From Rhodospirillales bacterium (GTDB taxonomy: Bacteria; Pseudomonadota; Alphaproteobacteria; Rhodospirillales; Casp-alpha2): a stretch of 50,046 nt of DNA. The stretch lies in NCBI GenBank assembly GCA_018662225.1, contig JABJGO010000022.1:1-50046 (forward strand), written 5' to 3'. Position 1 is the first letter of the stretch; every line of letters begins with the position of its first letter. Shown here one piece after another: positions 34,921-43,760 of this stretch. Made by a program: the position numbers and the translations under genes. The notes under the pieces were generated by a model. That model saw nothing but the letters and a program-made list of their open reading frames with translations, had not been told where the DNA came from and did no database searches.

Positions 34921-35032
34921 TCGTTTCCGGCCTAATCAATACAAACAACGCAAAACGCGCCAGTGCGCGAAACTCGCGGACTGGCGTTGCCCCTTAAAGA
35001 CATAGCTATGAAGCAATGTGTTGAGCGGGCGG

Positions 35033-37322: not shown

Positions 37323-39083
37323 TTGGCCCGCGAGATTCGATACGGGGACCTCGCTCGCGAGTTATCCCTAGAGCAAGTTTCAGTAAGTTACGGCGACTTA
37401 ACACCCGCTGTACAATACGATGACGCGGGTAACGTGATCCCGCATCGGCCAGAAAATCTCCATCTTACACCTACCAATATACAGCGGCTATTGGGGCCTT
37501 ACATTGGTGTAAGGCTCGGTAATCAGGTGAAGGCCGTCGTGCCACTGGCGCTTTACCTCATATTATTCCAGCTCTTAATTCTAAGGCAGGCAGTTGCAGA
37601 TTCCTGGATTATTACCGCTGGATTGTTCGCGGTCATCATTGGCCTGATGCTTTTCATGGAAGGTCTTAAGCTCGGCCTTATGCCGTTCGGTGAAACCATC
37701 GGCAATAATTTACCCAAGCGTGTAACCTTGCCCGTTGCCCTTACTGTTGCATTCTTATTAGGGATCAGCGTCACATTTGCCGAACCGGCCATCGGTGCTT
37801 TGAAGGCAGTGGGGATGTCTGTTGATCCCGTTCGCGCCCCCTATCTCTGGGCGCTACTCAACCAGTGGTCCGGTGTATTGGTGCTGATCGTCGGTATGGG
37901 GGTGGGGTTGGCTGCGGTGCTTGGGACCGTCCGATTCCTGAACGGATGGAGTCTCAAGCCCTACATATATCTCACGCTGGGGCCAGTGCTTGCTCTGACA
38001 TTTTGGGCCATGACAGATGCGGAACTGACTAAGATTCTGGGGCTTGCCTGGGATTGCGGTGCCGTCACCACGGGGCCTGTGACCGTGCCTTTGGTGCTTA
38101 GTCTCGGCATTGGTATTGCGTCAGCCGGCGGTACCGGAAAATCGTCACTTTCGGGATTTGGTATCGTCACCCTGGCATCGCTGTTTCCGGTTCTTGGCGT
38201 TATGTTATTATCCTTTTATCTGGCCGCGACGATCACACCTGAATCCATCGTTGCAGCGGCGGCGGTTATGGCGGTAGCAACAGAGGGCGTTGTGCCCTGG
38301 CACGAAACAACACCATTTGCCGAGGTTATCGGCGGTGTCCGGGCCATTGTGCCACTAGTCCTCTTTCTATTGGTGATTCTCAAGGTCGTCCTGCGCGAAA
38401 AGATTCATGAGGCGGGAATCGTTGCCTACGGACTGGTGCTGTGCGTGCTGGGCATGATTGTTTTCAATCTGGGGCTCAGCTATGGCCTATCCAAATTGGG
38501 AGGTCAGTCTGGTGAAATAATACCCGCCGCGTTCATCCAGCTCGATTACATTGAAGACTCCCCCCTGTACTTTTATGAGGTGGGTATCGCCATCGCGCTA
38601 TTTTTTGCGGCCGCATTGGGCTTTGGTGCGACCTTGGCAGAACCTGCACTGAATGCCCTGGGTATCACGGTTGAAAACCTGACCAACGGTGTGTTCAAGA
38701 AGCGTATGCTGCTCTATGCGGTTTCCATCGGTGTCGGATTTGGAATCGCTACAGGCGTGCTCAAGATTATCTATGATTTGCCCATCGGTTGGCTGCTCAT
38801 TCCTGGTTACGGGCTGGCGTTAATCCTGACCTATCTGGCGTCTGAGGAATTCGTCAACGTCGCATGGGATAGCGCAGGCGTGACGACCGGCCCCATAACG
38901 GTACCACTGGTGCTGGCCATGGGGCTGGGGTTTGGAAACGCTGTTGATGCGGTGGAGGGATTTGGAATCCTGTCCATGGCATCTGTGGGGCCCATCCTCA
39001 GCGTGCTTATAACGGGTGTTTGGGTTCAAGGCAGGGCGCGCCGAAAACGCGGGGCATCTGAACAAGAACCGGAGGCAACATGA
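37323..39083 (+). CDS. DUF1538-family membrane protein with internal duplication (586 aa)
   Basis: A multi-pass protein with two homologous halves (about residues 60-300 and 336-565). Each half has an AEPA motif after a helix (153-156 FAEPAIGALKAVG and 439-442 LAEPALNALGI). Each also has the AWDxxxVTTGPxTVPLVL block (242-259 and 514-531), followed by a GFGI segment and more helices. Such paired signature loops are typical of secondary transporters and channels, but the DUF1538 family has no known substrate that I can name. A soluble N-terminus of about 55 residues is present. It starts at TTG 37323 behind GGAGAAG; no ATG lies nearby. Its stop overlaps the first PII-like gene, so the PII proteins most likely regulate it. 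Confidence 0.85.
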   Translation: MAREIRYGDLARELSLEQVSVSYGDLTPAVQYDDAGNVIPHRPENLHLTPTNIQRLLGPYIGVRLGNQVKAVVPLALYLILFQLLILRQAVADSWIITAGLFAVIIGLMLFMEGLKLGLMPFGETIGNNLPKRVTLPVALTVAFLLGISVTFAEPAIGALKAVGMSVDPVRAPYLWALLNQWSGVLVLIVGMGVGLAAVLGTVRFLNGWSLKPYIYLTLGPVLALTFWAMTDAELTKILGLAWDCGAVTTGPVTVPLVLSLGIGIASAGGTGKSSLSGFGIVTLASLFPVLGVMLLSFYLAATITPESIVAAAAVMAVATEGVVPWHETTPFAEVIGGVRAIVPLVLFLLVILKVVLREKIHEAGIVAYGLVLCVLGMIVFNLGLSYGLSKLGGQSGEIIPAAFIQLDYIEDSPLYFYEVGIAIALFFAAALGFGATLAEPALNALGITVENLTNGVFKKRMLLYAVSIGVGFGIATGVLKIIYDLPIGWLLIPGYGLALILTYLASEEFVNVAWDSAGVTTGPITVPLVLAMGLGFGNAVDAVEGFGILSMASVGPILSVLITGVWVQGRARRKRGASEQEPEAT

Positions 39084-39478
39084 CAAAACGCGAAATCGTC
39101 GTACTGACGGACGTATCCCTGATTACTTGCGTCGTGCAACGTGGTTTGGCTGATAAAATTATTCAGGCCGCGCGCGCAGCGGGATCGCAGGGGGCCACAG
39201 TCAATTTTGCCAAGGGCATGGGTATTCGTGAACGCTTAGGCATTCTCGGCGTTGCTGTTGATGTGGAAAAAGAAGTAATCCACGTCGTGGTCTCCTCAGA
39301 ACAGCAGGAACGGGTGTTTGAGCAGATGTATCTTGCTGGTGAACTGGATACGCCTGGCATGGGTATCATGTACCTGACTCCACTGGAAAAAGCCGCCACC
39401 TATGTGCCGGAGGAGGTTCTTCAAAAATTGACGGCCAAAGCCGACCAAGGTGTAGATACTGGCGCACAGACTGAGTAG
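39080..39478 (+). CDS. PII-like signalling protein 1 (132 aa)
   Basis: A small ferredoxin-like trimeric PII fold: KIIQAARAAGSQGATVNFAKG leads into a T-loop at about 38-62, and the B-loop/strand part LDTPGMGIMYLTPLE is at 89-103. The Tyr51 that is uridylylated in GlnB is not present, so modification of the usual kind is unlikely. The gene overlaps the DUF1538 stop by 4 bases (ATGA) and precedes a second PII-like gene by 10 bases. PII proteins bind ATP, ADP or other nucleotides and gate partner transporters (AmtB-GlnK, SbtA-SbtB); by analogy this one should act on the DUF1538 protein. Confidence 0.82.
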   Translation: MTKREIVVLTDVSLITCVVQRGLADKIIQAARAAGSQGATVNFAKGMGIRERLGILGVAVDVEKEVIHVVVSSEQQERVFEQMYLAGELDTPGMGIMYLTPLEKAATYVPEEVLQKLTAKADQGVDTGAQTE

Positions 39479-39488
39479 GCACGGATTT

Positions 39489-39827
39489 ATGAAGATTGCT
39501 ACAAAAACCAAGCTCATCACCTGCATTCTGCCGCAAGGTAGTGGCATTGACCTTGTTGAGCGCCTATCGCGGGAACAGGGCATAAGTTCAGCCAATGTTT
39601 CGGCGGGAAGAGGTCGTGGTGCTGGACCGGTGGGCAGTATCGGCGCGTGGGATGAAATTGATATGCTGACGGTTACCGTTCCTGTGGAAAGGGCCGATGA
39701 GATTTTCGATTTTATCTTCCATGTTGGCGGTTTGGATCAGCCACGCGGTGGCATCATGTTCCAGCAAGCCGTTTCTCCTGTGACTGAGTTCAACTTACCT
39801 CATATCGAAGAGCCCCACGCCGATTAA
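39489..39827 (+). CDS. PII-like signalling protein 2 (112 aa)
   Basis: A second PII-fold protein, different from its neighbour: TKLITCILPQGSGIDLVERLSRE, a T-loop region of small residues (GRGRGAGPVGSIG, 40-52) and VGGLDQPRGGIMFQQAV as B-loop/strand. No modifiable Tyr in the T-loop. Two different PII-like genes behind one transporter gene suggest a mixed trimer or two separate sensors. ATG 39489 follows the first PII stop by 10 bases. Confidence 0.8.
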   Translation: MKIATKTKLITCILPQGSGIDLVERLSREQGISSANVSAGRGRGAGPVGSIGAWDEIDMLTVTVPVERADEIFDFIFHVGGLDQPRGGIMFQQAVSPVTEFNLPHIEEPHAD

Positions 39828-39918: not shown

Positions 39919-41310
39919 ATGGATGAGTTTATGATGGATTATCAATTTTTGTCATGGGCCATTTTACTTGGTGGGCTATCTGCTGCGTCGTTGCCTCTCG
40001 GATCAGTTTTGGGATTGAAGTGGCAGCCAGGCAATCGTGTTATCGGTGGCATGACTGCTTTTGGTGGCGGCGCTCTAATAGCGGCCTTGGCAGTTGAGTT
40101 GGTCGCCCCGACGACGATGCACCTGGTTCAAGCTGAGAACGCAGTTGCAAAAAATGAAGCCTCCCATCATCTAATTTATATGTTAATCGGAGCCATAATT
40201 GGCGGCGTAATATTTATTGCACTCGATAGTATTATTAATTCTCAGGGCGGTTTTTTACGAAAAACCTCGGCGACAATAGAATATTTTACCAACCGTAAAT
40301 CCGCCCGTAGGAAAACGATACTAGAGCATTTAGCAGGCAGTGAACTAATCAGGCACCTTCCGCTCAAAATCGTGGAAGAGATGGTCACCAAGGTAAATGA
40401 AAGAAGGTTCAAAGCTGGTGCTGTGCTCTTTGATGAAGGTGCTGATGGTGACGAAGTGTTTTTTATCGAATCGGGAACCGTCTCTATTACGAGGGGGGCT
40501 AAGGTTATAGCCCTTCTAACATCCGGCGATGTTTTGGGAGAAATTGCTCTTGTGACAGGCGCTCCCAGAACAGCGACGGCGGTTGCGAAAGATGATGTTT
40601 CTGCGCTTACCTTTCCGAAAGAGGATTTCGATGAATGGAGGTCACAATCTAGCGAATTTGATAAAGCAGCAACTATCCTGTCTGCCAGCAGACTAAAAGA
40701 GCTCGTTGATCGGGACGATATCGATATCGATGCAGGGCAGTGGGTGGACGAAGCGATGGCGTCATTGATAGAGGTAGCTGTAGTACCCACAGACGTACAG
40801 CTTCAAGAAGTCAGTAAGGAGCATGGCGGCGCCCCTGTAGCAATTTGGTTGGGGATTTTATTAGATGGAATTCCAGAAAGTTTCGTTATTGGGGCTGCGC
40901 TTGTCGTTTCTATTTCGGCTGCGGTATCGCAAAGTGGCGCTGACGCTATAACGTTAGGTTCTATTATTCCCTATACGCTAATAGCGGGGTTATTCCTTGC
41001 TAACTTTCCTGAAGCGATGAGTAGTTCAGTTGGCATGAAGAAGCAGGGCTGGAACAACCTCAGAATATTCTTTATGTGGTTTAGTTTGATGATTATGACG
41101 GCCATTGGCGCGGGTGTTGGCTATTGGTTAGGCGGCAGCGTGGATCATGGCGTAGTCGTTCTTATAGAAGGGCTTGCAGCTGGCGCTATGTTAACAATGA
41201 TCGCTGCAGCAATGATACCTGAGGCGGTTCATCTAGGGGGAAGCAATGTTACTGGATTATCAACATTATCCGGCTTTCTGGCAGCAATAGCATTTAAACT
41301 ACTCGAATAA
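39919..41310 (+). CDS. ZIP-like transporter with an internal cyclic-nucleotide-binding domain (463 aa)
   Basis: Three helices (about 10-33, 42-65, 85-108) are followed by a soluble CNBD (about 137-260). It carries AVLFDEGADGDEVFFIESG and the phosphate-binding cassette LGEIALVTGAPRTATAVA with its Arg. Five further helices (about 308-463) follow. Helix 4 holds LLDGIPESFVIGAAL and helix 5 ANFPEAMSSSVG, variants of the ZIP metal motifs HNxPEG/HExPEG in which the His are lost, and EGLAAGAMLTMIAAAMIPEAVH is close to the ZIP C-terminus. The CNBD sits in the helix 3-4 loop, where ZIPs have a His-rich variable loop. It is AT-rich. It could be a cAMP/cGMP-gated ion or metal transporter (inference). Confidence 0.82.
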   Translation: MDEFMMDYQFLSWAILLGGLSAASLPLGSVLGLKWQPGNRVIGGMTAFGGGALIAALAVELVAPTTMHLVQAENAVAKNEASHHLIYMLIGAIIGGVIFIALDSIINSQGGFLRKTSATIEYFTNRKSARRKTILEHLAGSELIRHLPLKIVEEMVTKVNERRFKAGAVLFDEGADGDEVFFIESGTVSITRGAKVIALLTSGDVLGEIALVTGAPRTATAVAKDDVSALTFPKEDFDEWRSQSSEFDKAATILSASRLKELVDRDDIDIDAGQWVDEAMASLIEVAVVPTDVQLQEVSKEHGGAPVAIWLGILLDGIPESFVIGAALVVSISAAVSQSGADAITLGSIIPYTLIAGLFLANFPEAMSSSVGMKKQGWNNLRIFFMWFSLMIMTAIGAGVGYWLGGSVDHGVVVLIEGLAAGAMLTMIAAAMIPEAVHLGGSNVTGLSTLSGFLAAIAFKLLE

Positions 41311-42701: not shown

Positions 42702-43760
42702 TTGCATTCGGATGCCGCCAGTACCGACGCCCCCGCCCCCGTAATGGGACTGTTTGAACGCTGGCTATCGCTTTGGGTTGGCGCCGCTATTATCGCCGGA
42801 GTCGGCCTCGGCATACTCTCTCCTGATCTATTTCAATTCATCGCGTCGCTCGAATATGCAAACGTCAACTTTGTCGTTGCTGTTCTCATTTGGGTGATGA
42901 TCTACCCGATGATGGTGAACGTGGATTTTTCCAGCCTGTCTCATATCGGTGATCGCCCCAAGGGCTTGATCATCACGCTGGTGGTAAATTGGCTTATCAA
43001 GCCGTTTACCATGGCCGCACTTGGGGTATTTTTCTTTACCATCGTTTTCAAGGATCTCATCAATCCTGCGGATGCCAAGCAATACATTGCGGGTGTTATC
43101 TTGCTGGGAGCGGCCCCTTGCACGGCAATGGTGTTCGTGTGGAGCCAATTAACCAAGGGCGATGCGACCTATACGCTCGTCCAGGTCTCGGTGAATGACA
43201 TCATCATGATTTTTGCCTTCGCCCCCATTGTGGCTTTGTTGTTGGGGGTTACGGATATTGTCGTGCCGTGGGAGACTCTTTTAACGTCTGTCATCATGTA
43301 TGTTCTAATCCCCCTTGTGGCCGGCGCCATAACACGAAAGCTGTTATTATCTGGTGGCACCGCCCACATTGATAAGTTCACCGGAAAACTGAAGCCGTTT
43401 TCAATTGTTGGTCTTTTGACAACTGTGGTTCTTTTGTTTGGGTTTCAGGGCGGTGTCATCATTGGCAAACCGCTTCTCATATTGCTGATCGCTGTGCCAC
43501 TGATTATTCAGACTTACGGTATTTTCCTGATCGCATACGTCGCCGCATGGCGTTGGAAGGTTCCTTTCAATGTTGCCGCGCCCTGTGCATTGATTGGATC
43601 GTCGAATTTTTTCGAGTTGGCCGTGGCTGTAGCCATCAGCCTGTTTGGACTACATTCTGGTGCCGCGTTAGCGACGGTTGTTGGCGTGCTGGTAGAAGTA
43701 CCCGTGATGTTATCCCTGGTGGCAATCGCGAACAGGACCAAGAAATACTTCCCTGCCTGA
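42702..43760 (+). CDS. ACR3-family arsenite efflux protein (352 aa)
   Basis: A ten-helix bile-acid/arsenite-family exporter. Signatures are [20 protein letters not shown] at the start, [28 protein letters not shown] with the key Cys of helix 4, and [18 protein letters not shown] with the Asn/Glu of helix 9. It pumps arsenite out. Start is TTG 42702 (AGG site 11 bases upstream) or ATG 42744, just before the usual GLFER start. There is no arsR, arsC or arsH beside it, which is unusual for an ars pump. Confidence 0.9.

Follow-up and report, generated by a model that had tools for sequence, protein, structure and literature searches.

Canonical GlnB/GlnK proteins of the PII superfamily bind nucleotides through a B-loop GDGK motif and a C-loop RxR motif and are modified on Tyr51 of the T-loop, and a pair of PII proteins, NifI1 and NifI2, regulates nitrogenase. 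The present work concerns two PII-like genes that directly follow the gene for a DUF1538 membrane protein in a 50,046-nucleotide stretch of DNA from a Rhodospirillales bacterium (assembly GCA_018662225.1, contig JABJGO010000022.1, positions 1 to 50,046 of the forward strand), called the window below. PII-controlled transporters are already known as a kind. As far as the available portions of a review go, the partners named are ammonium, nitrate/nitrite, urea and bicarbonate transporters only, the controlled transporters listed are AmtB, Amt1, Nrt, Urt and SbtA, and direct inhibition by PII is described, for example in the pairs GlnK-AmtB and SbtB-SbtA (PMC10710835). What appears to be new here is a widespread pairing of DUF1538 genes with PII genes, and we consider it on balance probable that the two PII-like proteins of the window, PII1 and PII2, act jointly as the gate of an antiporter for monovalent cations and protons, with all three genes forming one transport module.

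The characterised DUF1538 system, UmpAB of Halomonas zhaodongensis, is described in the available sections of its report as a two-component Na+(Li+,K+)/H+ antiporter that works between pH 6.5 and pH 9.5, with pH-dependent Na+(Li+,K+)/H+ antiport obtained by co-expression of UmpA and UmpB in E. coli (PMC5484666). UmpAB homologues are present in cable bacteria (PMC10030654, in part), and the accessible part of a machine-learning study places DUF1538 among pH-adaptation genes, tabled with MnhB, MrpF, TrkH, Kdp and others (PMC13255231). The portion available of PMC6516651 concerns a different PII-like membrane protein. No link between DUF1538 and PII was found in literature titles or the starts of abstracts, other DUF1538/UmpAB full texts being unchecked for PII. 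Neither PII nor P-II occurs as a word in PMC5484666 or PMC13255231, and PII does not occur in PMC12093952.

A fused DUF1538 protein encoded with two PII-like proteins

The three genes lie on the + strand of the window as the first-pass annotation, made from the sequence alone, had placed them: the DUF1538 gene (37323..39083), the PII1 gene (39080..39478), which overlaps its 3' end by 4 bp, and the PII2 gene (39489..39827), which starts 10 bp past the end of PII1. The DUF1538 gene has a TTG start, with GGAGAAGAG just 5' of it, and encodes 586 amino acids in which two PF07556 repeats score 356.5 bits against a gathering cut-off of 22.6, making the product a DUF1538 member. PF07556 was the sole Pfam family matched, so the protein belongs to neither the SbtA nor the Amt family. 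The UmpA model NF041627 reached 202.8 bits, strongest on the N-terminal half, and the UmpB model NF041628 reached 156.8 bits, strongest on the C-terminal half, both short of the curated cut-offs of 490 and 500; ten split UmpA proteins, at 357-391 bits, also scored below the cut-off of 490. By these matches the protein is a long fused UmpAB homologue, not a proven equivalog, and a predicted cation/proton antiporter. The view taken in the first-pass annotation, that the partner of the PII proteins has no known substrate, is thus superseded at the level of the family by the characterised antiporter UmpAB (available sections of PMC5484666).

The same annotation had described a duplicated protein with paired AEPA and AWDxxxVTTGPxTVPLVL motifs, and both pairs were recovered. 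The first repeat holds an AEPA motif at residues 153-156 (37779..37790, +), including Glu154, and AWDCGAVTTGPVTVPLVL at residues 242-259 (38046..38099, +), including Asp244; the second holds AEPA at residues 439-442 (38637..38648, +), including Glu440, and AWDSAGVTTGPITVPLVL at residues 514-531 (38862..38915, +), including Asp516. Glu in AEP and Asp in [YFW]D were invariant in ten aligned repeats drawn from split, short-fused and long-fused proteins, a feature that the window protein has in common with the UmpAB type. In a wider count, 101 of 105 long-fused proteins and all 9 short-fused ones had both AEP copies, and 77 of 80 split-size open reading frames (ORFs) had one copy, the pattern used there for the Asp motif being too strict for the split type. 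Glu154, Asp244, Glu440 and Asp516 are natural candidates for cation/proton binding, as judged from the alignments. The long-fused protein also begins with a pre-membrane extension of about residues 1-55 (37323..37487, +, from alignments), which was not seen where the split and short-fused proteins used for comparison begin (L142, L143 and the split set) and may possibly be a PII docking segment.

Compared with UmpAB, the window protein is thus alike in family and in having two homologous halves, the N-terminal one closer to UmpA and the C-terminal one to UmpB. It differs in being a single fused protein with an N-terminal extension, in its scores below the equivalog cut-offs and in the two PII genes that follow it, whereas the available text on the UmpAB clone reports no PII gene (PMC5484666).

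PII1, of 132 amino acids, matches PF00543 at 29.7 bits (cut-off 25), and a profile of 15 PII1 sequences matched GlnK in the PDB (6yc6, E 1.3e-5). PII2, of 112 amino acids, had no match in Pfam or NCBIfam; a profile of 18 PII2 sequences gave as its best PDB match 9p1x_H (E 3.4e-5), which we take to be a NifI1/NifI2 structure. The predicted structure of PII2 (pLDDT 83.5) matched GlnK 6yc6 in Foldseek (E 1.8e-5) and aligned with GlnK1 2j9d in VIA-align with a Z of 12.1 and an rmsd of 2.5 over 96 residues. Profile and predicted fold together place PII2 in the PII superfamily fold, in agreement with the earlier description of two distinct PII-like genes.

The canonical ligand-binding residues are replaced in both proteins. 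PII1 carries the T-loop motif GMGIRERLG, Lys64, and a B-loop TPGMG in place of GDGK, and GDGK was found in 0 of 85 PII1 and 0 of 79 PII2 sequences; RxR after the B-loop, counted for PII1 only, occurred in 1 of 85. The T-loop stretches of both window proteins are free of Tyr, which bears out the earlier remark that neither has the classic modified residue, and a Tyr anywhere in the stretch was seen in 17 of 85 PII1 and 26 of 79 PII2 sequences. The residues replaced here are those of the nucleotide (ATP) and 2-oxoglutarate sites, and the genome's own GlnB keeps GDGK, RxR and Tyr51; the PII1 T-loop is about 5 residues shorter than that of this GlnB.

The locus resembles GlnK-AmtB in the linkage of a PII gene with the gene of a membrane partner, and SbtB-SbtA in the pairing of a PII-like protein with an ion transporter (available portions of PMC10710835). 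Unlike GlnK-AmtB, it has a partner unrelated to Amt by Pfam and two PII proteins, both of which depart from GlnK in motifs and one in T-loop length; unlike SbtB-SbtA, it has a partner other than SbtA and showed no tie to carbon fixation. With NifI1/NifI2 it has in common two diverged PII proteins encoded together, as well as the presumed identity of the best PDB match of PII2, whereas the target here is presumably a transporter rather than nitrogenase and a hetero-assembly of PII1 with PII2 would be a prediction.

Conservation of the linkage between DUF1538 and PII genes

Used as query against the species genomes of GTDB, the window protein gave 254 relatives, and the best 80 loci of these, at 59-91% identity, carry titles from several Pseudomonadota classes, Nitrospinae, Nitrospirales, Opitutales, Planctomycetota, Elusimicrobia, Bdellovibrionales and Helicobacteraceae. 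Together with 11 loci from further relatives and the window, they make up 92 long-fused loci, or 88 distinct loci after four duplicates were removed. PII1 was directly downstream of DUF1538 in 85 of these 88, with a gap of -4 bp in 45 of the 85, and PII2 came next in 79 of the 88, three of these PII2 genes being recognised by reading the sequence. All nine loci missing PII2 are explained by the records themselves: eight end at a contig end with 58-484 bases left, and one (L131) runs into a masked stretch. The three loci missing PII1 likewise trace to contig ends or masking. The gene order is not due to chance, as it is kept in every long-fused locus with complete, unmasked downstream sequence.

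Among 61 relatives, PII1 and PII2 were present in all 12 uncut long-fused loci, and 23 of 23 weaker PII1-like matches sat directly after a split-type DUF1538 gene (positions compared by eye). The exceptions in this set were a PII pair lying at the edge of its contig, for which a DUF1538 gene was not found (G023), a doubtful PII2 match with an E of 9e-4 (G025) and a long-fused gene cut by a contig end (G031). Of 22 split loci of relatives (L008-L029), 19 had an adjoining PII and three were cut by a contig end.

A phylum-wide sample covered 120 genomes, 55 of them with DUF1538, and every non-fragment locus was read. Long-fused genes were accompanied by PII1 and PII2 in 21 of 21 loci, and split or short-fused genes had one PII directly adjoining in 42 of 45 (29 loci L144-L172, the split pairs in L180, L187 and L197, and 10 of the 13 loci L208-L220). 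Three fragments stand outside this second count: L222 with a PII, L223 without one and L221, which is cut. Strong PII1 matches (178-217 bits, next best 69) occurred in exactly the 22 genomes with a long-fused DUF1538, the source genome included, and at those loci; PII2-profile matches were confined to the same 22 of 120 genomes and again to those loci, with the PII2 of G086 itself under the profile threshold and recognised on reading the locus. An absence of conserved linkage had been set beforehand as the observation that would count against the proposal of the first-pass annotation; linkage was found across many phyla and architectures, without exception in the long-fused type and with three exceptions among the 45 others. 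Two PII genes for one transporter, which that annotation had thought unusual, turned out to be the rule in the long-fused subfamily.

Architectures of the paired genes

Four arrangements were seen: split umpA-umpB with one PII; a short fused DUF1538 of about 500-520 amino acids with one PII (L146, L148, L169); the long fused DUF1538 with PII1 and PII2; and a form borne on plasmids of Clostridia, in which a single gene encoding two PII-like domains comes after a short fused DUF1538. Nine plasmid records matched DUF1538, and a PII followed it in 7 of 7 examined. The tandem-PII proteins annotated in Peptoclostridium, Paraclostridium and Vescimonas have 222-224 amino acids, and those read from ORFs have 217 in Acetoanaerobium and, in Subdoligranulum, lie in a 305-residue ORF counted from the first start codon. 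Pfam searches of three tandem proteins gave two P-II stretches in two of them and one in the Vescimonas protein.

In a tree of 65 PII sequences, PII1 and PII2 fell on one side and the tandem halves and the split and short-fused PIIs on the other, a division with weak support (82/99), an unsettled bootstrap and a midpoint root; the genome's own GlnB, whose branch is very long, was placed with PII1 and PII2. The placement hints that the two-PII design may have arisen more than once.

The source genome also holds a second, split umpA-umpB-PII locus (G000:C49, L037), and in L180 and L187 a split and a long-fused system are neighbours, separated by about 0.3 and 3 kb. At loci L198-L207 there are related PII-like genes, scoring 60-99 bits to a mixed PII model, with no DUF1538 gene in the stretches read; some of these lie near an ORF that is presumably argB-like.

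Proposed gating of the predicted antiporter by the PII pair

Since PII control is already listed for transporters from AmtB to SbtA, the simplest mechanism would be ligand-dependent binding at the cytosolic face with a T-loop block or lock. The DUF1538 protein would be a covalently joined UmpA-UmpB pair in the cytoplasmic membrane that swaps monovalent cations (Na+, perhaps K+/Li+) for protons, with exchange taking place via the conserved Glu of AEP and the Asp in each of the two related repeats. PII1 and PII2 would assemble, probably as a 1:1 hetero-oligomer that takes the trimeric PII fold as its basis, and this assembly would bind the cytosolic face of the antiporter in a ligand-dependent manner. 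In one ligand state the T-loop would block or lock the transporter, making the regulation inhibitory in sign, and in the other the assembly would be released. The proposal draws on the conserved gene order, the exclusive co-occurrence, the PII profile and fold matches, the relatedness to UmpAB, the conserved acidic residues and the association with Na+/H+ exchangers described below.

If an antiporter family travels with PII genes in this way, PII control would extend to Na+/pH homeostasis, and the almost unstudied DUF1538 family would gain a testable regulatory mechanism. The paired PIIs, encoded as two genes in many phyla and as one tandem gene in Clostridia, would moreover be natural material in which to study why PIIs sometimes work as two different subunits. 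A broader version, which seems plausible to us but is put forward tentatively, is that DUF1538 antiporters may be an unrecognised PII-gated class and the first PII-controlled cation/proton antiporters, in which a PII hetero-oligomer or a tandem double-PII couples Na+/pH homeostasis to an intracellular ligand other than the canonical ATP/2-oxoglutarate, the two-PII design having arisen more than once.

The PII pair might not plug the transporter at all but bind it in order to activate or tune it, for example by fixing its set-point for pH or Na+. The pH-dependence of UmpAB activity (PMC5484666, available sections) means that there is something to tune, and the mean pairwise identities, at 0.62 for DUF1538, 0.59 for PII1 and only 0.32 for PII2, show PII2 to be far less constrained than its neighbours, as would fit a modulatory subunit. 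We nevertheless regard tuning as unlikely, as all PII-transporter pairs in the available portions of the review are inhibitory (PMC10710835) and UmpAB functions in E. coli with no cognate PII reported in the text available (PMC5484666). Under inhibitory gating, the same conservation pattern would fit PII1 as a conserved docking subunit and PII2 as its faster-evolving partner.

Several observations weigh against gating by the PII pair. PII partners so far are seemingly limited to trimeric transporters, according to the available portions of PMC10710835, and UmpAB is reported as a heterodimer in those of PMC5484666. The AF2 model of the DUF1538 protein is moderate (pLDDT 77, 29 sequences) and gave no convincing fold match, so that an oligomer on which a PII trimer could sit would be a prediction: Foldseek with this model reached at best an E of 0.034 and a TM of 0.14, which says nothing firm about the fold, VIA-align with it a Z of 5.0 and an rmsd of 9.9 over 147 residues, and a phmmer search of the protein against PDB sequences only a chance antibody match (E 0.77). 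In E. coli, UmpAB activity was obtained with a clone for which the available text reports no PII ORF (PMC5484666), and PII is therefore not needed for activity, which fits a regulatory rather than a structural role. The equivalog cut-offs for UmpA and UmpB are far from reached, so the substrate may differ. A Halomonas-type UmpA, sought in 398 genomes at E 1e-125 for the sake of its PII neighbourhood, was not found, a result that does not show its absence. The acidic residues are not strictly universal, as in one genus four diverged long-fused proteins (L190-L193) have 0-1 AEP copies with no match to the Asp pattern, and the two paired-PII types are not grouped together in the weakly supported tree.

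Adjacency itself has counterexamples too. Split pairs with complete flanks lack an adjoining PII in L214 (G144), L215 (G153) and L220 (G176), which means that adjacency is not universal in the wider DUF1538 family, and the same lack is seen in the gene fragment L223 and in a 153-residue DUF1538 remnant of one of the 61 relatives (G004, L225). The three split pairs are not of the window's long-fused type, and each of their genomes has a PII1-profile match on another contig; that of G144 (L204) resembles a split-type PII and that of G153 (L206) an unlinked PII-like family.

Neighbouring genes

The commonest immediate upstream neighbour of the operon was a sodium/hydrogen exchanger, in 13 of 64 loci scanned, and cyclic-nucleotide-binding domains occurred in 12 of 64. 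By direct search, a Na+/H+ exchanger with a cyclic-nucleotide (cNMP)-binding domain stood within 600 bp of 13 of 109 long-fused loci (12 upstream, one downstream), its Pfam domains verified in 7 of the 13; the flanks farther out, about 854 kb against 119 kb searched near the operon, yielded no such exchanger. These 13 loci are not independent, with eight from Nitrospinota, four from gammaproteobacterial records (one titled Pseudomonadales) and one from Rhodobacteraceae, and the orientation of the exchanger varies among them. The window has instead, 92 bp downstream, a ZIP-like metal transporter that has a cyclic-nucleotide-binding domain inserted into the middle of the protein (39919..41310, +; PF00027, 73.2 bits, residues 161-240) and whose match to PF02535, at 16.2 bits, is under the cut-off. 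A relative of this gene lies directly downstream of the operon in a Nitrospinae locus (L066), and its association is weaker than that of the core three genes.

The recurrence of transporters with cNMP-binding domains as neighbours could mean that the PIIs are merely co-transcribed with the DUF1538 gene and act on another target, such as the neighbouring exchanger or a metabolic enzyme, and the related single PII-like genes away from any DUF1538 gene (L198-L207) and the three split pairs with no adjoining PII point the same way. This seems to us very improbable: the exchanger is near only 13 of the 109 long-fused loci, whereas a PII is with DUF1538 in all the long-fused and nearly all the other loci of the phylum-wide sample, where PII1 and PII2 are moreover confined to genomes with a long-fused DUF1538.

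The neighbours bear also on the substrate. The long-fused protein may move another small ion (bicarbonate, ammonium or other), with the PII pair matching flux to the carbon or nitrogen state in the manner of SbtB or GlnK. SbtB-SbtA and GlnK-AmtB are model PII-transporter pairs (PMC10710835, available portions), the UmpA and UmpB cut-offs are unmet, and 2 of the 64 upstream neighbours are alpha carbonic anhydrases (PF00194). A link to carbon fixation was tried and rejected: the RuBisCO large chain was present in 5 of 13 relatives with a long-fused DUF1538 or its PII pair, no more often than in the whole set of relatives (24 of 61), and the leading upstream neighbours are Na+/H+ exchangers, not carbon genes. 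We accordingly find another substrate improbable, and a monovalent-cation/proton antiporter gated by PII1 and PII2 remains the reading preferred here. Glutathione S-transferases made up seven of the same 64 upstream genes.

Other features of the window

Scans for promoters and terminators gave results near chance level. At Rfam gathering thresholds the window had one match, a borderline ffh RNA (34950-35001, - strand, 35.1 bits against a threshold of 35), which sits just upstream of an ffh gene on the - strand. A riboswitch was also considered and rejected, as Rfam searches of 14 other loci at the same thresholds returned one tRNA and one cobalamin riboswitch and nothing else; the latter, in L037, precedes the DUF1538 genes there by about 1.1 kb. 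Finally, an ACR3-type arsenite efflux transporter is encoded at 42702-43760 on the + strand (TIGR00832, 402.6 bits).

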